Of a stretch of DNA of 64,000 nt, positions 3,842-56,650 are shown piece after piece. The notes under the pieces were generated by a model. It saw nothing but the letters and a program-made list of their open reading frames with translations. It had not been told where the DNA came from and did not search any database. The stretch comes from Actinomycetes bacterium (GTDB lineage Bacteria > Actinomycetota > Acidimicrobiia > Acidimicrobiales > Microtrichaceae). The DNA is taken from NCBI GenBank assembly GCA_024222295.1, contig JAAEPF010000017.1, positions 124,001 to 188,000 on the forward strand, given 5' to 3'. How positions within the stretch are numbered: position 1 is the stretch's first letter; every line of letters begins with the position of its first letter. The translations under genes and the position numbers were made by a program.

Positions 3842-4726
3842 ATGAGCAACTTCATCCAGATCGTCCTCGTGGGGCTCGCTGACGGCGCTGTCTATGCGAT
3901 GTTGGGCCTCGGCCTGGTGATCATCTTCCGCTCCACAGGCCTGCTGAACTTCGCGCAGGGTGAGCTGGCCATGTTCTCCACCTTCATCGTGTGGACCATC
4001 TGGAACGCAGGAGTCCCGATGTGGCTGGCCGTTCTGGGCGGCATGCTCGGCGGGTTCCTGATCGGGGTGATCCTCCACGGCGTCGCGGTCGCGCCGCTAG
4101 GAGACCCGCACCAGAACCCGCTCGCGGTGGTGATCGTGACCATCGGCTTGTTCCTCGCGATCAACGGTGCCGCCCAGCTCATCTGGGGCACCGTCGACAA
4201 GCGACTGGACCCGCTTTTCGGGGACGGTCAGATCACCATCGGCGATGTCGCGATCCAGTACCAGAAGATCGGCATCTGGCTGGTGCTGGCGGCGCTGGTG
4301 GCAGGGTTCTCCGTGCTGTTCCAGCGCACCAAGGTGGGCCTCGGGATGCGGGCGGTGGCCTCCAACTCCGAATCGGCCGGCCTCTGCGGCGTGCCCGTGC
4401 CACGGATCCTCATGCTGGGCTGGGGTCTGGCAGCCGCCGTGGGCACCCTTGCCGGCGTCCTCACCGCCGACCGGGCCGGCGTCGGCACCAACCTGATGCA
4501 GCTCGTGCTGATCTTCGCCTTCGCTGCGATCACTCTGGGTGGATTCGACTCCATTGCGGGTGCCGTGGTCGGCGGACTCCTGGTCGGGGTCCTCTCTGCT
4601 GTGGTGCCCGCCTATGTGTCGGCGTTCGAGAAGATGCCCCTTGCGCCGGCCTTCGTGCTCATCCTCGCCGTGCTGCTGTTCCGGCCTGAGGGATTGTTCG
4701 GGTCCAAGCAGGTGCAGCGCGTATGA
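3842..4726 (+). CDS. livH: Branched-chain amino-acid ABC transporter permease LivH-like
   Basis: Integral membrane subunit of the importer, 294 residues, almost entirely hydrophobic with about eight membrane segments. The N-terminus MSNFIQIVLVGLADGAVYAM and the following GLVIIFRSTGLLNFAQGELA are hallmark LivH sequences, as is FDSIAGAVVGGLLVGVLS near the C-terminus. The ATG at 3842 is chosen because GGAGGG lies eight bases upstream and the preceding frame has no membrane character. The stop overlaps livM (ATGA). Confidence 0.92.
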   Translation: MSNFIQIVLVGLADGAVYAMLGLGLVIIFRSTGLLNFAQGELAMFSTFIVWTIWNAGVPMWLAVLGGMLGGFLIGVILHGVAVAPLGDPHQNPLAVVIVTIGLFLAINGAAQLIWGTVDKRLDPLFGDGQITIGDVAIQYQKIGIWLVLAALVAGFSVLFQRTKVGLGMRAVASNSESAGLCGVPVPRILMLGWGLAAAVGTLAGVLTADRAGVGTNLMQLVLIFAFAAITLGGFDSIAGAVVGGLLVGVLSAVVPAYVSAFEKMPLAPAFVLILAVLLFRPEGLFGSKQVQRV

Positions 4727-5799
4727 AGTCCAACGCGCCCCCATGGCTCCGTTGGGGCTGCCTCGGCGTTCTGTTGGTCGTACTGCTGCTCCTGCCCATG
4801 CAATTCAGTGCGTTCAGGGTGGAGCAGTTCATCGGCTGGATGACCATCGCTGTTGCGGCGGCCGGTCTGAACCTGCTCACCGGCTACAACGGCCAGATCT
4901 CGGTGGGTCACGGTGCCCTCTACGGTCTCGGCGCCTACGCATCCGCATTGCTCGTGGTGGAGAGCTCCTGGCCGTTGCTGTTGACCATTCCGGCTGCCGC
5001 TGTCGTCTGCTTCGTGGCCGGCGTCGTCATCGGCCTGCCGGCACTGCGGATCCGTGGTTTCTACCTGGCGCTGGTGACCCTGTCGGTCGCAGTGCTGTTC
5101 CCGCAGATCATCGAGCAGTTCTCCAGCCTCACCGGCGGCCGCAGCGGCCTGCGAATGGTGGTGCCCCAGGAAGGTTGCCCGAGGGGCCGCCCGGAATGTC
5201 CCGTGAAGTGGGAGGCCCCGGTCGACGGCCTGGAGCCCGACCAGTGGAAGTACTACATCTTCCTGACGGTCACGATCATCGTGTTCGTGGTGCTGTCCAA
5301 CCTCGTGCGCTCCCGGGTCGGCCGCAGCCTCGTCGCCATCCGTGACAACGAGACTGCCGCCGCGGTGTCCGGTATCAACGTGTCTCGTACCAAGATCATC
5401 ACCTTCGGAGTGTCGGCGGCGGTCGCCGGCGTCGGCGGGGCGATGTTCGCCCTCAACGAGGGCCAGGTGAACCCGAGTTCGTTCACCCTGCTGGTGTCGA
5501 TCTACCTGCTGGTGGCCGTGGTCGTGGGTGGACCGGCCACGGTCATGGGTCCGGTGGTCGGTGCAATCATCTACGGGCTGTTCAACGATGTGATCGGCCC
5601 CGCCCTGCCAGGTCGGTTCGAGAACGCGGCGCCGGTGATCCTCGGTGTGCTTCTCGTGATTCAGATGCTGATCGCGCCCAACGGCGTCGTGGGCCAGTTC
5701 AAGGATCTGATGGGCCACATTCAGGCTCGTCATGCAGGGGGTGCCCCGGAGGGGCAGACTGTCGGTAGTTCGGAAAATCAGGAGGAATCTGAGACATGA
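4723..5799 (+). CDS. livM: Branched-chain amino-acid ABC transporter permease LivM-like
   Basis: Second permease subunit, 358 residues, with about nine membrane segments. Family motifs are GLNLLTGYNGQISVGHGALY, IGLPALRIRGFYLALVTLS and, in the large cytoplasmic loop, SRVGRSLVAIRDNETAAAVSGI, the coupling loop that contacts the ATPases. An insertion with two cysteines at about residues 147-165 (QEGCPRGRPECPVKW) in the loop before the fifth or sixth segment is not typical and could form an extracytoplasmic disulfide. Overlaps both neighbours by four bases. Confidence 0.9.
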   Translation: MKSNAPPWLRWGCLGVLLVVLLLLPMQFSAFRVEQFIGWMTIAVAAAGLNLLTGYNGQISVGHGALYGLGAYASALLVVESSWPLLLTIPAAAVVCFVAGVVIGLPALRIRGFYLALVTLSVAVLFPQIIEQFSSLTGGRSGLRMVVPQEGCPRGRPECPVKWEAPVDGLEPDQWKYYIFLTVTIIVFVVLSNLVRSRVGRSLVAIRDNETAAAVSGINVSRTKIITFGVSAAVAGVGGAMFALNEGQVNPSSFTLLVSIYLLVAVVVGGPATVMGPVVGAIIYGLFNDVIGPALPGRFENAAPVILGVLLVIQMLIAPNGVVGQFKDLMGHIQARHAGGAPEGQTVGSSENQEESET

Positions 5800-50051: not shown

Positions 50052-50576
50052 TCAGTCCTTCAGCGCGAGGAGTACCTCGTTGTGCCGGAGGAACCAGGGC
50101 TTCCAGGGCGGGTCGTAGCGCGCCCAGATCGGCTCGCCCTCGGTGTCCAGCCCCTCGCGGTCGAGCGTTCTGCGGAGTTCGCGCAGGTTCCGGTCGTGCA
50201 GCCCCTTGGACCAGCTGCCCCGGTAAGGGAGCGCGGCCAGCCGCTGCGCCCCGACCTCCTCGAGGGTCACGCGGTCATCGTTCGGCGTGGGCAGCGACTC
50301 GGAGGTGAAGTCGTGCGGCATCATGAAACGCACGGTGAAGCTCTCCTCATCCGGAACCTGGATGACCGGAGTGGTCATGGCGATCTTTGTGCTGCTGCCG
50401 TCGCCCGAGTCGTTGGCCCCGAAGATGTAGCGGGCGAGTATGCCGAAGCCGGCGTTGCCGGCACCCTGCAGCGATCCGCTCACCCTGGTGGAAGCCACCA
50501 GGTATGGCTCGTACTTTCGAACCTCCACGCTGCCGATGGTTCGCTCGAGTTGGTAGTCGGGGCTGTCCAGGGCCAT
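50052..50576 (-). CDS. SOUL heme-binding family protein
   Basis: 174 residues. The SOUL/HEBP core is evident: YQLERTIGSVEVRKYEPYLV at the start, STKIAMTTPVIQV in the middle, FTVRFMMPHDF, and ALPYRGSWSKGLHDRNLREL followed by a C-terminal YDPPWKPWFLRHNEV. Members bind heme or tetrapyrroles loosely; the function in bacteria is unsettled. ATG 50576 fits the fold; no signal peptide. Divergent from a DUF2071 gene, 57 bases between the starts. Confidence 0.88.
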   Translation of the reverse strand: MALDSPDYQLERTIGSVEVRKYEPYLVASTRVSGSLQGAGNAGFGILARYIFGANDSGDGSSTKIAMTTPVIQVPDEESFTVRFMMPHDFTSESLPTPNDDRVTLEEVGAQRLAALPYRGSWSKGLHDRNLRELRRTLDREGLDTEGEPIWARYDPPWKPWFLRHNEVLLALKD

Positions 50577-50633
50577 GGGCAGAGTGTCGCGCGGAGTTGG
50601 AACACGCAGACACCGCGCGTCGTTGTCGTAGAC

Positions 50634-51410
50634 ATGAGCGCACTGATGGAACACCGGAGCACACCCATCTCGCGTTCAGCGCCGGAGAGCGTGCAGCGGC
50701 CGGTGATGGTGCAGTACTGGACCGACGTGGTCTTCATCCACTGGCCACTTCCCCCCGAAGAGGTCCAGGCGCTGCTGCCGGACGGGGTTGAGGTCGACAC
50801 GTTCGACGGCAACGCGTGGGTCGGCCTGGTTCCATTCAGAATGGAGGGCCTTGGGCTGCCCGGCCTGGCGCCGCTACCGATGGTGGGGAGCTTTCCGGAG
50901 GTGAATGTGCGGACCTACGTGCGCAGCGGCCCCCGGAGGGGCGTCTGGTTCTTCTCACTCGACGTCGACCGGCTGCTGCCAGCGCTCGTGGCACGCGCCG
51001 CCTATGCCCTTCCTTACTGCAAGGGCGACACATCTCACCACAGGATGGCGGAAACCGTCTCCAGCTCGGTGCGCCGCACTTGGCCCGGTGGCCGAGGCGG
51101 TCCTGCCGCAATGGCGGAGCTCGTCGTTCACACGGGTGACCCGATTGACGTCGGCCCGGGCCTGGAGAGCTTCCTGACTTCCCGTTGGGGTTTGGTGTCA
51201 GCGAGTCGTGGCGGGCGGCTCCGCTGGGCGCCGGTGGAGCATCCGAAGTGGCCGCTGTTCTCCGGCGAGCTGGCGCAGCTCGACGAAACCCTGCTCGCGG
51301 CGGCCGGTCTGGACCGCCCGGCACAGGCGCCGCACGTCATGTGGTCACCGGGTGTTCCGGTGAGGGTCGGCCGCCCGGTGTCGCTCAGTCGAGTTGCGCA
51401 ACGCCGCTGA
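50634..51410 (+). CDS. DUF2071 (YqjF-like) protein
   Basis: 258 residues. Diagnostic sequences are VVFIHWPLPPEEVQALLPDG, AWVGLVPFRMEGLGLPGLA and FPEVNVRTYV, followed by RGVWFFSLDVDRLLPALVAR and LPYCKGDTSH, all characteristic of DUF2071. The fold is an acetoacetate-decarboxylase-like beta cone; no reaction is known. ATG 50634 is taken, ATG 50646 is possible. The last 26 bases overlap the convergent renalase-like gene. Confidence 0.88.
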   Translation: MSALMEHRSTPISRSAPESVQRPVMVQYWTDVVFIHWPLPPEEVQALLPDGVEVDTFDGNAWVGLVPFRMEGLGLPGLAPLPMVGSFPEVNVRTYVRSGPRRGVWFFSLDVDRLLPALVARAAYALPYCKGDTSHHRMAETVSSSVRRTWPGGRGGPAAMAELVVHTGDPIDVGPGLESFLTSRWGLVSASRGGRLRWAPVEHPKWPLFSGELAQLDETLLAAAGLDRPAQAPHVMWSPGVPVRVGRPVSLSRVAQRR

Positions 51411-52395
51411 GCCTCGCGATTGCCGCGGCAGCTGCGAGACCGGAAAGCACTGCGCCCTCCACCCTTGGCTCGCCGAATGCGTCACCGGCCAGCACCAACG
51501 GGGGAAGCCCTGACGCCACCAGGCAGCGGTCGGGGTGGGACACGACGGGGCGCGCATAGCGCCAGCGTTGCACCTGTGAAGCTCCGGCGATGGGTGGGGA
51601 ATCGAGCTCGGCGGCGCCCAGGAGTGATGAGAGCACGGCCTCGTCGGGTGACCTCCACAATCGCCGACTCTCTTCGGCGCTTGCGTGGATCGTCACCGCA
51701 GGTGATTCGGACACACCCTTGGTTTGGTTGTCCGCCATCCAGTCGATGGGCCCGCTGGCTGGGTCGACGGCACCGGGCTCGGGCAGCCCCGAGGGTCCGC
51801 TGAGCGGCACGAGCGCAGCAAGGCACGGGTCGTAGGCGATCGCGTCCAGGGCCTCTCGGTCGCTGCGGGCGAGTTGCACCTGTCCCGCTTCGATCATTTG
51901 CAGGGACTGCGGCACAGGTGCGGTGAGGATGACTGCGTCCACGTGCGTTTCGTAGCTGGCCGCCCGCAGTCGCCACGCGCCGTCCACGATGCTCACGGAC
52001 TCGACCCGCTGCTCCCTGCGCACGTCGCTGCCCCCCGCGAGGTGCTTTGCGATGTCGTTCATGGAGCGCACACCGCGATAGCGGATGTGGCCGTCTGCGA
52101 CTTCGGGTGCTTGGTCCTCCAATCCCCGGGTTCCCACCCTGGCGGAGAACCAGGGGGTGGCGATGCCCTCGGCCTCCCAGTGCCCGACCATCTCGGTGAA
52201 CCGACCGGTGTGGGTGGTCAGGAACTGGGCGCCGTGGTCGATTGTCGCTTCGCCGATCCTCCGCGTGGCCATCCGACCCCCCACGCCACGCGCCTTGTCG
52301 AGTACGACCACGTCACAACAGCTGCGCAAGGTCCTCGCTGAGGTCAGCCCTGTGATTCCTGCGCCGACTATTGCGACACTCGGCCGATCACCCAT
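51385..52395 (-). CDS. Renalase-like FAD-dependent NAD(P)H oxidase/amine oxidase
   Basis: 336 residues. FAD-binding GXGXXG is VAIVGAGITGLTSARTL, followed by VLDKARGVGGRMATRR and DHGAQFLTTHTGRF, which together are the renalase signature; the C-terminal flavin contact is PLVLAGDAFGEPRVEGAVLSG. Bacterial renalases reoxidise isomeric NAD(P)H forms that would inhibit dehydrogenases. A leaderless -10 hexamer precedes the ATG. Confidence 0.87.
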   Translation of the reverse strand: MGDRPSVAIVGAGITGLTSARTLRSCCDVVVLDKARGVGGRMATRRIGEATIDHGAQFLTTHTGRFTEMVGHWEAEGIATPWFSARVGTRGLEDQAPEVADGHIRYRGVRSMNDIAKHLAGGSDVRREQRVESVSIVDGAWRLRAASYETHVDAVILTAPVPQSLQMIEAGQVQLARSDREALDAIAYDPCLAALVPLSGPSGLPEPGAVDPASGPIDWMADNQTKGVSESPAVTIHASAEESRRLWRSPDEAVLSSLLGAAELDSPPIAGASQVQRWRYARPVVSHPDRCLVASGLPPLVLAGDAFGEPRVEGAVLSGLAAAAAIARLSGVAQLD

Positions 52396-52401
52396 CGGCG
52401 C

Positions 52402-52407
52402 AAGCTA
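52402..52407 (-). promoter_or_regulatory. -10 hexamer TAGCTT before the renalase-like gene
   Basis: TAGCTT, six bases, then ATG at 52395 on the minus strand. Confidence 0.5.
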
Positions 52408-52520
52408 CCCCTGGCGCAGCGGTCGGGACGGTCGGCCCGACGCGCTGGCTGCGGACGAGTTCCGGGATTTCCCGTGAGTTGCTCATCCAACGGCACGGGC
52501 GCGGGCGAATCACTCTCCGT

Positions 52521-53714
52521 ATGGGTGAAAGCATCGACACCAGGGACGGCGTGATTGTCGTGGGCGGCGGCTACGCGGGTCTTCATGCAGTGCGGGCGGT
52601 GGCCAGCCGTTCGGTCCCCGTGACGCTCGTGGATCGGGAAGGCCGACATGATTTCGTGACCCGCCTCGCATCCGTCGCCGGCGGCACCGCACCGTTGGGT
52701 GACGCCGGCAGGCCGATTGGAGAGTTCGCCTCCGACGTGGAGCGCGCCGCGGTGGCAGAGGTCGGCGACGGCTGGGTGCGGCTGGTCGACGATCGGATCC
52801 TCTCAGCTGATGCGGTCGTCGTGACAACCGGTGCCGAGGTCTCACGGCCTCCGATTGAGGGCATAGAGCATGCGTACGGACTTCGCAACGCACAGGATGC
52901 TGCGTGGCTACGGTCGGCGATAGCCGAGGCTGAGTCCCTCGTGATCATCGGTGGTGGCGCCACAGGGGTGCAGCTCGCCGGAGCGGCATCCATCGCCCAT
53001 CCCGGGCTTCGCATCGAGCTACTCGAGGCAGAGCACAGGTTGCTGGCTGGTCTGCCCGCCGAGCTGGCCTCGGGCGCGCGGCGGATCCTCGGTGACAGGG
53101 GCGTGGTGGTTCGTCTCAGCCACAGCGTCGAGCGAATCACCACCGCTGGAGTGGAGACCGCCTACGGCTCGGTCGACGGCATCGTCGTCTGGGCCGGCGG
53201 CTTCGAGGCCGACACGTCGGGCATCGGGCTGCCCACCGCCGAGGACGGGCGGATTCTTGTTGACGACCGGCTCCGGGTGCGCGACTTCGAGCGCACGTTC
53301 GCGGCCGGCGACGTGGCAGCCCACGTCGACGGCCGCGGCGACCGGCTCCCGATGTCGGCCCAGGTTGCCGTGGGTGCAGGCTCGGCCGCCGGCGCCAACG
53401 CAGCCCGTCTGGTGCGCGGCCGAGATCTGCAACGGGTCCGACTGTCACAGATCGGCTGGGTGCTCGATCTCGGAGGTCGCCGGGGAGTCGCCCGGGTGGG
53501 CCCGTTCTCGCTGAGCGCTCCGTTCCTGGACCAGTTCGCTCCGGTCATTCACGACTTGATCGACCTCAAGAACCTCTTGGAGATCGGCGGCGCCGCAGGC
53601 CTACGGTTCGCGCCTTCGTCGGTCACGGGTCCGCTCGGCTGTGTGTCGCCAGACGTGCCCGACGCAGGTGTGCGTCCGAGGCTGGCTTCCGACCGGCGTT
53701 CAGCCGACCGGTGA
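52521..53714 (+). CDS. NDH-2-like FAD-dependent pyridine-nucleotide oxidoreductase
   Basis: 397 residues of the type II NADH dehydrogenase/ferredoxin-reductase fold. FAD motif GVIVVGGGYAGLHAVRAV, NAD motif SLVIIGGGATGVQLAG, an ATG-like motif VVVTTGAEVSRPPIEG, and the second FAD contact TFAAGDVAAHVD. The NDH-2 glutamine/alanine quinone-site motif is roughly matched by SAQVAVGAGSAAGANAARL. No C-terminal amphipathic anchor is obvious, so a soluble disulfide or quinone reductase is also possible. ATG start lacks a ribosome binding site. Confidence 0.8.
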   Translation: MGESIDTRDGVIVVGGGYAGLHAVRAVASRSVPVTLVDREGRHDFVTRLASVAGGTAPLGDAGRPIGEFASDVERAAVAEVGDGWVRLVDDRILSADAVVVTTGAEVSRPPIEGIEHAYGLRNAQDAAWLRSAIAEAESLVIIGGGATGVQLAGAASIAHPGLRIELLEAEHRLLAGLPAELASGARRILGDRGVVVRLSHSVERITTAGVETAYGSVDGIVVWAGGFEADTSGIGLPTAEDGRILVDDRLRVRDFERTFAAGDVAAHVDGRGDRLPMSAQVAVGAGSAAGANAARLVRGRDLQRVRLSQIGWVLDLGGRRGVARVGPFSLSAPFLDQFAPVIHDLIDLKNLLEIGGAAGLRFAPSSVTGPLGCVSPDVPDAGVRPRLASDRRSADR

Positions 53715-53970: not shown

Positions 53971-54098
<128 letters not shown>

Positions 54099-54272
54099 GG
54101 CAGACACCGGAGCCGGCGTCAAACCGATGTCAAACGAATCGGCGCGGACACACCGAGTCCCAGCAGGATTGGGTTCGTTTCGCGCGGCTAGCTGTCGCAC
54201 CCGGGAGGCTTCCCAGAATCCCTTTTCAAGAACCCGGAATAGGGCGCAGGGAAACAGGCGTACCAACACGGA

Positions 54273-54650
54273 CTAGTTGGTGTTGGCCAATCGAATTGGC
54301 CCCCGCGCTGTTGAGGCATCGACCGGTCTTCCGTCCTGCAGTATCTGAATCCGTCCCTTTGCGTGCAGGCGTCTGGCCGCCGCACGAGCGGGTTCGACGA
54401 GAGACCTCCATTGTTCAGAGCCAACCAGTCGGGCGGCGTCGGTGGGACAGATGGAGCCGTTTCTGTCCGTCTCAGACAACAGTCCCAAGATGGCATCCTC
54501 GAGCTTGCGGTCGACGGGGCGCCGTCGCCGCTTCCGACAGCCAGCCGAGCAGTACCTGACTTCGTCCCAGTTGCGCTCCCAGGCCTTGCGCCAGACCATG
54601 CGTCGACCGCAAACGGCGCAGGTCTTTGACCGTTGAGGGGATCGGCTCAT
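54273..54650 (-). CDS. DUF2256-DUF3253 fusion protein
   Basis: 125 residues. The N-terminal DUF2256 unit is a small zinc-finger-like motif: [20 protein letters not shown] then [12 protein letters not shown], with four cysteines. The rest is DUF3253, a winged-helix-like domain: [40 protein letters not shown] and a C-terminal RGPIRL. Both domains occur next to photolyase/cryptochrome genes in other bacteria. ATG overlaps the photolyase-like stop (ATGA), so both products are made together. Suggests a DNA- or RNA-binding helper of light-dependent repair (inference). Confidence 0.85.
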
Positions 54651-55852
54651 GTCGGCTCCTCGACGCTTCGGCGCCAAGTCGAAAACGAGTTGACCCGAGC
54701 GCCTCCTGGCGGACATAGCCATTGCCATGGATGCGTCTCGCTGACCTTCAGCTTCGAGATCAGGCGGGCGAACCTCGGCACCGGTGCATGGGTTACTGAA
54801 AGAGACAGCCCAGCCAATTCCTCAAGTGGGTCTCCCAACCGGAGTACGAGTTTTCGGCGAGTTCCCAGGTCGGCCAGTGTCTCTGTCAGGAACACGAGCC
54901 GCTTGGAAGACAGCTGTAGGCGGCTGAGCAAAGGTGCGTCGAACACGAATACGGCTGGCAGTTCCGGATTGGCCGACATGGCCGGATCGTTCCCGAGTGA
55001 CTCGGCGGTCAACCACAACCATTCGGAGGGGCCTTGCTTTTGGACCTCGGTGGGTCCGAACAGCCCAGGGCTGTCCATCCTCTGGTATTCCGGCTGCTCG
55101 GCGTAGGCGGGCTCTGTTGGGAAGTCCTCGATTGGGCACGCCTGATTGTGTGGACAGGTGGAACACAACCCCGGAGCGCGCTTGTCCACCTGCCAGCGAC
55201 TGAATCCGTAGGGCTTCGCTGACCCGACGCCGGTCACCCACTGCCAACCCAAGCGGTTAGCAGCACGCGAACCGTCAAGAAGATGCCGGAAGAACTCGTC
55301 TTCCCCACGGCGCCAGTCGAAGCCGTTGCGAACCGACCAATGGCTGGCCAGCCACATGCGCTGCTGGTTAACGAGCCAACCGTCTGTGTGGAGCTCGTCG
55401 ATCGCGGTCGAGACGCATGCAAGATCACGGTCCCAGCCTTCCCCGTCGCGGGCAACCACCATCTCGCGCCTGACCCCGCGACCTGTTCGGGAGCCATGGG
55501 TCGCGTACCAATGTCTCGAGTACTCCTGCCAGAGCAACTCGTCACGGAAGCGCCGCACGTCCTTCTCGGGTCCACCTTCGACTGAGTTCCAAACGCGTTG
55601 AAGTGAGAGCAGGCCATGACGGATGTAGGGAGACAACCGCGAGGCGCCCCGCGAATCTGGCGGCAGAACCTCGTTGCGAGTCCGGGCGTAGCCGCGGACC
55701 TCGAAAGAAGCGAGCGCCGATTCCGCTGCTGTGGCGCCACCGCGCACTGAGCCAGAGCCACGCACATCGTCACTGCACAAGTGCGCCAGACGCGCCGACA
55801 CGAACTCCTCGGCTGCGGCGCGGCCGGTCTCTGGGAGCCGAAGCTCAGTCAT
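54647..55852 (-). CDS. Photolyase/cryptochrome-like flavoprotein with reversed domain order
   Basis: 401 residues. Residues 40-225 are the helical FAD-binding domain of the photolyase family: [75 protein letters not shown] and [19 protein letters not shown] linker has [11 protein letters not shown] (Cys230, 233, 239), a possible metal or Fe-S site. Residues 275-400 resemble the Rossmann-like antenna domain that is N-terminal in ordinary photolyases: [45 protein letters not shown]. So the two halves are swapped. Start ATG 55852. Function: probably light-driven DNA repair or signalling. Confidence 0.8.
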
Positions 55853-56125
55853 GATGGTCGTTTCTGGGCATGTGCAGATAAAGAAGTCGTGGCTGGAGGT
55901 GAGTGACACGGGTCAACGGCGAACAGGGAAAAGTCTTGGTTGGAGCGGCGACGGTCGTCTTCATTGCCCTGTGCCCGGCTGTCTAATCGTGGTCGGTCCT
56001 GCCGCTCGGGACCACCAATAGTGTGCGATGGCAGCGGCGAGCGTCCCGCGCCGCCTGAGGTGGTGAACAGTTGCCCGTCCGTCAAGAGGTTCATGGATGC
56101 GATGCCAGCGCCGGGTCGCCGAGAT
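55853..56125 (+). other. Gap upstream of the photolyase-like gene, no gene seen
   Basis: About 270 bases, lower in GC than the flanks, without a supported ORF; should hold the promoter of the minus-strand pair. Confidence 0.35.
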
Positions 56126-56420
56126 GACCCGCCCGTGCAACGACGCGATCCCCCGGCAACAACTCGAATCGGTGGCCGAGGTAGAGCCGGACCTCGTGGT
56201 GGCGATGTCGAGTTTGGAGATGACCAACCGGGAGGTCGACGGTGTCTGGTACAACTTCGGTTCGCCCGAATCGGACGAAGTCCTGCTCGGCCTCTTCGGT
56301 GAGACAGTGAACCGGCTGACATCGACGGGAGCCAAGGTTGCGCTGGTGCTGATGCCGGAGGTCGTGGCAGGCACGGAGCGGGGCGTTGGGCCTGAGGAGG
56401 TTGCGCGGGCCGAAACCTGA
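56126..56420 (+). pseudogene. Fragment of an SGNH/acyltransferase C-terminal domain
   Basis: The frame reads TRPCNDAIPRQQLESVAEVE, PDLVVAMSSLEMTNREVDGV, then TSTGAKVALVLMPEVVAG, which looks like the middle of the SGNH domain found at the C-terminus of OafA-type acyltransferases. The GDS nucleophile motif and the final DxxH motif are both missing, so this is a remnant of about 95 codons. It lies just inside the right edge of the tRNA-bounded interval. Confidence 0.45.
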
Positions 56421-56429
56421 ACGATCTTT

Positions 56430-56502
56430 TGGAGCAGGTCGCGCAGCCATCTCCGGGTTCGCAACCCGGGGGTCGCAGGTTCAAATCCTGCCCCCGCCAC
56501 CA
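56430..56502 (+). pseudogene. Degenerate initiator-tRNA copy (right end of the island)
   Basis: Matches tRNA-fMet from the D-arm (GGAGCAG) to CCA, but the 5' acceptor strand is lost (GATCTTT in place of CGCGGGG), the D-stem cannot close and the anticodon loop reads TTCGCAA instead of CTCATAA. The anticodon stem (CCGGG/CCCGG) and T-stem (GCAGG/CCTGC) still pair, with compensatory changes against the intact gene. Not a functional tRNA. Confidence 0.75.
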
Positions 56503-56553
56503 ACGAAACCCGTGTGACAGCAGGCCTCCGGGCCTGCTGTTGTGGTTCGGGGC
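56463..56553 (+). repeat. Direct repeat copy B, partner of 54008-54098
   Basis: Right copy of the 91-base repeat (about 88 percent identical by eye), attR-like. A further GTCAAACGAA occurs about 40 bases downstream of both copies, so the duplicated stretch may be longer. Confidence 0.8.
56517..56540 (+). terminator. Hairpin after the tRNA remnant
   Basis: ACAGCAGGCC, loop TCCG, GGCCTGCTGT: 10 pairs, same core as the terminator at 54059 with three outer pairs lost. Confidence 0.6.
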
Positions 56554-56650
56554 GCCTTGTCGCCGCCGCGCCGAACCTGTGTCAAACGAACTCAGACGCG
56601 CATTGGTAGCGAACTGTCGTCGATCTCTCGCCGGTAGCATCGGGCCACAC

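Follow-up and report, generated by a model that had tools for sequence, protein, structure and literature searches.

A reversed-domain photolyase-like protein of an actinobacterium, with predicted iron-sulfur cluster ligands and a coupled DUF2256-DUF3253 gene

Does this locus encode a photolyase whose two halves have changed places, would such a protein hold a metal cluster, on which lesion would it act, and what might the small gene coupled to it contribute? The original prediction, made from the letters of the sequence, had proposed a swapped, possibly metal-containing enzyme with a nucleic-acid-binding helper on a mobile island, forming a new repair or defence module. We examined these proposals in the whole stretch of DNA analysed, 64,000 nucleotides long and hereafter called the window. 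The features on which the argument turns are the following:

54647..55852, minus strand, reversed-domain photolyase-like protein of 401 residues, ATG start at 55852
55178..55735, minus strand, FAD-binding (catalytic) domain, about residues 40-225 (Pfam, 1tez profile match, hhalign)
54653..55045, minus strand, shortened Rossmann-like antenna domain, about residues 270-400 (model, VIA-align, hhalign)
55415..55417, minus strand, Cys146, predicted fourth cluster ligand
55136..55165, minus strand, Cys230, Cys233 and Cys239 (C-x2-C-x5-C-P), predicted cluster ligands
54273..54650, minus strand, DUF2256-DUF3253 protein of 125 residues from the ATG at 54650 (Pfam; ATGA overlap with the photolyase stop)
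54531..54632, minus strand, DUF2256, four-cysteine finger (Pfam PF10013, E 9.8e-15)
54285..54509, minus strand, DUF3253, winged helix (Pfam PF11625, E 8.1e-25; 2ns0 fold match)
53971..54047, plus strand, tRNA-Met (CAT) (ARAGORN)
53999..54138, plus strand, left repeat copy, comprising the 3' half of the tRNA-Met and the sequence after it (repeat search)
56454..56590, plus strand, right repeat copy, 86% identical over the first 101 bases and 80% over the whole (repeat search)

The antenna domain comes first in most photolyases, and classic photolyases and cryptochromes have the order opposite to the one proposed here. Pairwise, profile and fold tests agree in confirming, at the level of sequence and structural model, that the 401-residue protein begins with a photolyase FAD domain and ends with a shortened antenna domain. 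Ten of 11 conventional photolyases align to the window protein in two swapped pieces, and of the eleventh, which is the host's own, only the FAD part aligns. In a search of 296 genomes, the C-terminal part of the query matched two other photolyases upstream of their FAD part. Profile-profile comparison with hhalign pairs the N-terminal half with the conventional C-terminal domain (99.8%, E 7e-28) as opposed to the conventional N-terminal domain (0.4%), and the C-terminal half with the conventional N-terminal domain (94.2%, E 1.1e-7) as opposed to the C-terminal one (0.2%).

For the catalytic half, Pfam reports FAD_binding_7 at residues 147-213 (E 1.1e-10), and a search of the PDB with the family profile returned the class I CPD photolyase 1tez at E 5.7e-23, with PhrB (4dja) far behind at E 0.0017. 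Homologues align from the same N-terminus. The DNA_photolyase family PF00875 was not found by Pfam in the window protein and was matched by one of 22 relatives only (E 0.014), so that the antenna assignment rests on pairwise alignment, profile-profile comparison and fold. None of the NCBIfam models scored above its cut-off, and none of 22 family members matched the PF04244 N-terminal domain at E<=1. A match of one of these 22 members to PF10576, the endonuclease III cluster family, was set aside as too weak (E 0.28).

The AlphaFold model of the 401-residue protein exceeds pLDDT 50 over any length only at residues 1-31 and about 265-378, and its FAD half lies mostly below 50. This poor half is probably why a plain Foldseek search with the whole-protein model returned nothing at E<=0.001. 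With residues of about 267-386, the best VIA-align match is E. coli photolyase (1dnp_A) at its residues 1-164 (Z 8.4, 125 residues, 3.2 Å), and 47 of 50 among the matches listed, many of which are repeat entries of the same protein, are photolyases or cryptochromes aligned at their N-terminal domain. Since a Z of about 8 is middling when taken alone, the weight is carried by the consistent family and position of these matches. Both halves having been compared by profile and the C-terminal one also by structure, the C-terminal half shows an antenna fold, and the exchange of halves, with FAD first and antenna last, is borne out by the pairwise, hhalign and VIA-align results.

Near full-length relatives, all at E 4.5e-114 or better, occur in 20 of the 296 Actinomycetota genomes, host included, and are spread over nine families; other photolyases follow far below in the same search and match at the FAD half. 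Eleven of 33 genomes from the family of the host hold the protein, in two of them in pieces. The host itself has a reversed, a PF04244-type and a conventional photolyase; at three other loci (L011, L049, L056), a PF04244-type gene adjoins the reversed one. The reversed photolyase was also found among Deinococcus plasmid matches; on the plasmid of Deinococcus sp. QL22 (L039), the two domains are separate overlapping genes (4001-4774 and 4771-5292), the second of which is annotated only as hypothetical, a split layout like that of phr4/phr5.

Would such a protein carry a metal cluster? FeS-BCP photolyases bind a [4Fe-4S] cluster through a set of four cysteines. The original prediction had singled out Cys230, Cys233 and Cys239 and missed Cys146; all four are present in every one of the 30 aligned rows, which come from 29 distinct contigs because L046 lies on the same contig as L008 (L012, which ends at a contig end, was dropped). 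The same columns are cysteine in eight of nine PF04244-type proteins and in none of the 11 conventional photolyases, and both aligned Deinococcus plasmid relatives (L038 and L039) have them; relatives from Asticcacaulis (L040) and Persicobacter (L041) are without the cluster cysteines. Because these four cysteines are the FeS-BCP ligand set, a [4Fe-4S] cluster in the 401-residue protein is likely. The likeness to FeS-BCP proteins (PF04244; Agrobacterium PhrB, 4dja) extends to a K/R-x-Y motif before the cluster region, but these proteins have the conventional domain order, a PF04244 antenna domain, and His, Leu, Met and Pro where the window protein has Asn, Met, Trp and Trp. Class I CPD photolyases, such as E. 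coli Phr and the Anacystis enzyme, resemble the window protein in FAD-domain sequence and lesion-site residues and differ in their opposite domain order and in lacking the cluster cysteines.

The swapped photolyase had been put forward as new, yet its layout has been in print since 2022 for Synechococcus and Cyanobium: the available parts of Haney et al. (PMC9426592) describe reversed order and four cysteines in Phr6 and Phr4/Phr5 of these picocyanobacteria. Judged by its sequence, the window protein is an actinobacterial member of this already described layout. The FAD domain is first and the antenna domain last in both, encoded in one gene (Phr6) or two (Phr4 and Phr5), and the cysteine spacing is nearly the same, at 84, 3 and 6 here and at 85, 3 and 6 in RS9916 Phr4 (cysteines 169, 254, 257 and 263; PMC9426592, in part). 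The two differ in phylum, and they are likened by domain order and by printed cysteine positions as opposed to a sequence alignment. A coupled DUF2256-DUF3253 gene is present here, whereas the available parts of PMC9426592 mention no such gene beside phr4/5. What the window protein and its relatives add is an actinobacterial branch, a CPD-type site beside cluster cysteines, and a recurrent DUF2256-DUF3253 neighbour.

In the same parts of that paper, a cyanobacterial phr4 mutant survives UV-C 20 to 30 times less well and is unaffected by the UV-B dose used; phr4/phr5 protect E. coli from UV-C, with light and dark not significantly different, and give it no protection from UV-B (PMC9426592). Light-independent protection from UV-C together with the lack of a UV-B effect makes a poor fit to plain photoreactivation. 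Phr7, composed of an FAD domain and a Z-domain, likewise has the FAD domain first and a short C-terminal part; it is reported to be the nearest relative of Phr4/Phr6 in a FAD-domain tree, and it differs in being described, in the parts available, without cluster cysteines (PMC9426592). We infer that Phr7 and the short photolyase-like (SPL) group described in PMC9178010, also available in part, are one group, which would include L040 and L041. In Asticcacaulis (L040), the FAD-domain protein is preceded by a gene that carries an NAD(P)-binding protein annotation.

To ask which lesion the active site would fit, residues were mapped to E. coli Phr and compared among the 30 rows, the 11 conventional photolyases and the nine PF04244-type proteins. 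Positions are given in what we take to be the E. coli Phr numbering, in which W277, N341, M345 and W384 are presumably the CPD lesion-site residues. The window protein has all four of these. Across the family, every one of the 30 rows keeps W277, N341, W359, N378, W382 and W384, and 27 of them have Met at position 345. The position of N341 is Asn in all 11 conventional proteins and His in all nine of the PF04244 type, which also have Leu at M345, Pro at W359 (9/9) and Met at W382 (9/9). E274, also counted as CPD-typical, is non-discriminating because seven of the 11 conventional proteins have Gln there. Two flavin-site positions depart from every other group compared (R278 to Gln and D374 to Ser, each in 30 of 30 rows), and W306, the outermost Trp of the triad, is Trp in only two of the 30 rows, within a gappy stretch. 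Because the seven positions named above are kept, as opposed to the His, Leu, Pro and Met of the PF04244 type, the lesion site of the reversed-domain family looks to be of CPD type as opposed to (6-4) type, a reading against which the changes at R278, D374 and W306 count.

This assignment has to be weighed against the possibility that the Fe-S cluster marks (6-4) activity, as the available parts of Haney et al. suggest from the cysteines for Phr4/5 and Phr6 (PMC9426592). The same cysteines in nearly all PF04244-type proteins speak for it. The Asn that is invariant in the reversed-domain rows, and shared with all conventional proteins where the PF04244 type has His, speaks against it, as does the gene content of the hosts: a PF04244 gene is present in 18 of the 20 genomes with a reversed photolyase, host included, versus 19 of the 276 others, so that such hosts have no obvious need of a second (6-4) enzyme. 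We consider a (6-4) photolyase unlikely, and an enzyme acting on cyclobutane pyrimidine dimers remains the favoured reading.

The downstream gene had been described as a four-Cys finger plus a winged-helix-like domain in a frame that overlaps the photolyase by ATGA, and Pfam, the overlap itself and the 2ns0 fold all uphold this description. Its longest frame spans 54273-54728 on the minus strand (151 residues), and the start is likely the internal ATG at 54650, which is preceded by GAGGAG. The model of the partner has a mean pLDDT of 87, and its DUF3253 part matches the Rhodococcus structure 2ns0 (Foldseek E 9e-8; VIA Z 15.1 over 83 residues); after 2ns0, the VIA rows drop to Z 8-9 and consist largely of Z-DNA-binding domains with a winged helix. 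Given how widespread this fold is, it indicates no function for DUF3253. The partner also hit a PHROG with the label HNH endonuclease (E 3.3e-5); part of this match falls on the finger, and it was set aside as too weak. In full-text literature searches we found two papers that name DUF2256, none that names it together with photolyase and none that names DUF3253.

A survey of the pair, which had been suggested as a check, covered 36 photolyase loci, namely the window, 10 of 11 and 18 distinct of 19 from two sets, and seven more, with L012 left out; flank lengths differ between the sets, and several loci are closely related to each other. The DUF2256-DUF3253 gene adjoins the photolyase in 16 of the 36, in both gene orders: after it in the window, L003, L004, L005, L009, L013, L044, L048 and L050, and before it in L006, L007, L008, L010, L118, L119 and L121. 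Stop and start overlap in 12 of the 13 junctions read, as ATGA in nine (window, L003, L004, L005, L009, L013, L006, L007, L010) and as GTGA in three (L008, L048, L050); at the L044 junction, no in-frame start was found within the 60 bases examined. Among the 20 genomes that have a reversed photolyase, 15 carry DUF2256 above its cut-off, versus 18 of the 276 others; these co-occurrence counts, and Fisher tests run on them, take no account of shared ancestry and serve as description only. DUF2256 also adjoins a PF04244-type gene at two loci (L064 and L075).

A strict link between DUF2256 and Fe-S photolyases was rejected. DUF2256 occurs with neither a reversed nor a PF04244 photolyase in 13 of the 296 genomes, all under one family label (f24; L077-L081), where three of the 13 matches hold an internal stop, and a photolyase gene was present in three of the 12 plasmid DUF2256 neighbourhoods inspected, out of 53 records. 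On a Sphingobium plasmid (L113, 2974-3458), DUF2256 and DUF3253 are two neighbouring genes that are not fused.

A coupled winged-helix protein could also be the DNA-binding output of a cryptochrome-like light or redox sensor that performs no repair. The two substituted flavin-site positions and the lost third Trp are compatible with such a role, as is the light-independent protection conferred by the cyanobacterial phr4/5 in the available parts of that report (PMC9426592). The lesion-contact positions are nevertheless kept, 20 of the 36 loci have no adjacent partner, and DUF2256 stands also beside other genes annotated as photolyases, and we regard a sensor as quite unlikely when compared with a CPD-repairing enzyme.

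It remains to consider how the pair came to its present position. The two repeat copies are 2,455 bases apart, enclosing a segment of about 2.45 kb with the photolyase pair between them, and are the only two found in the genome. The segment has a G+C content of 63.2% versus 67.3% for the window, and the right flank is equally low. In the tree, L011 and the L003 group form a cluster with the window copy (support 95), which then joins L042 and L043 (support 93); the seven copies from the host's family that were included fall elsewhere, and support is below 70 at many deeper nodes. No integrase or transposase family was matched by any of the eight ORFs scanned from 50 to 59 kb, and the ORF at 56097-56420 had no Pfam match. 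A search for a tRNA insertion site common to 29 photolyase loci revealed tRNAs for Leu, Ser or Thr at nine of them and tRNA-Met at none. Of the proposed mobile island, then, the tRNA-Met repeats, the low G+C and the tree placement stand, and an integrase is missing among the scanned ORFs; horizontal arrival of the pair is plausible, and mobility of the segment weakly supported. Just left of the tRNA-Met lie four ORFs at 51385-52395 (minus), 50052-50654 (minus), 50082-51410 (plus) and 52371-53714 (plus), which encode two oxidoreductases, one a flavin amine-oxidoreductase and one of the pyridine-nucleotide type, together with a SOUL heme-binding protein and a DUF2071 protein.

That the pair might be a defence or mobile-element module is suggested by the flanking tRNA-Met-derived repeats, its patchy presence within the host's family and its placement in the tree away from same-family copies. 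PADLOC, however, yielded no family at E<=0.01 for either protein, which leaves the proposed defence role without footing. Moreover, none of the 40 viral-contig stretches that matched one of two peptide patterns encoded a relative, phage matches were partial (eight records, none over 80% of the query), and no tRNA-Met occurs at the other photolyase loci scanned. We hold a defence or mobile-element module to be very improbable.

Based on the above data, we propose, with a probability of roughly 0.68, that the locus encodes an actinobacterial reversed-domain iron-sulfur photolyase that is light-dependent, probably acts on CPDs, and has a DUF2256-DUF3253 partner. The 401-residue protein would bind FAD and a [4Fe-4S] cluster, and its antenna domain would fold back to lie against the FAD domain, as the two do in ordinary photolyases. 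Absorption of blue or near-UV light could then drive the transfer of an electron from reduced FAD to UV-damaged DNA, where the lesion would most likely be a cyclobutane pyrimidine dimer. The DUF2256-DUF3253 protein may be a partner of Fe-S photolyases that binds DNA or helps in assembly.

A bolder proposal, which we put forward tentatively and consider rather doubtful, is that reversed-domain Fe-S photolyases are CPD enzymes with a dedicated DUF2256-DUF3253 partner, and together form a two-component bacterial photorepair system. The partner would present DNA or help to mount the cluster, and the substrate would perhaps be single-stranded or otherwise exposed DNA; if true, this would undo the assumption that an Fe-S cluster goes with (6-4) repair.

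The present analysis extends a photolyase layout of picocyanobacteria to Actinomycetota and, from plasmid matches, to Deinococcus. Two ideas become directly testable: a CPD-type active site may coexist with an Fe-S cluster, and the DUF2256-DUF3253 protein, as yet uncharacterised, may partner photolyases. Because most photolyases have the antenna domain first, the reversed-domain family also lends itself naturally to testing what the joining of antenna and catalytic domains requires.
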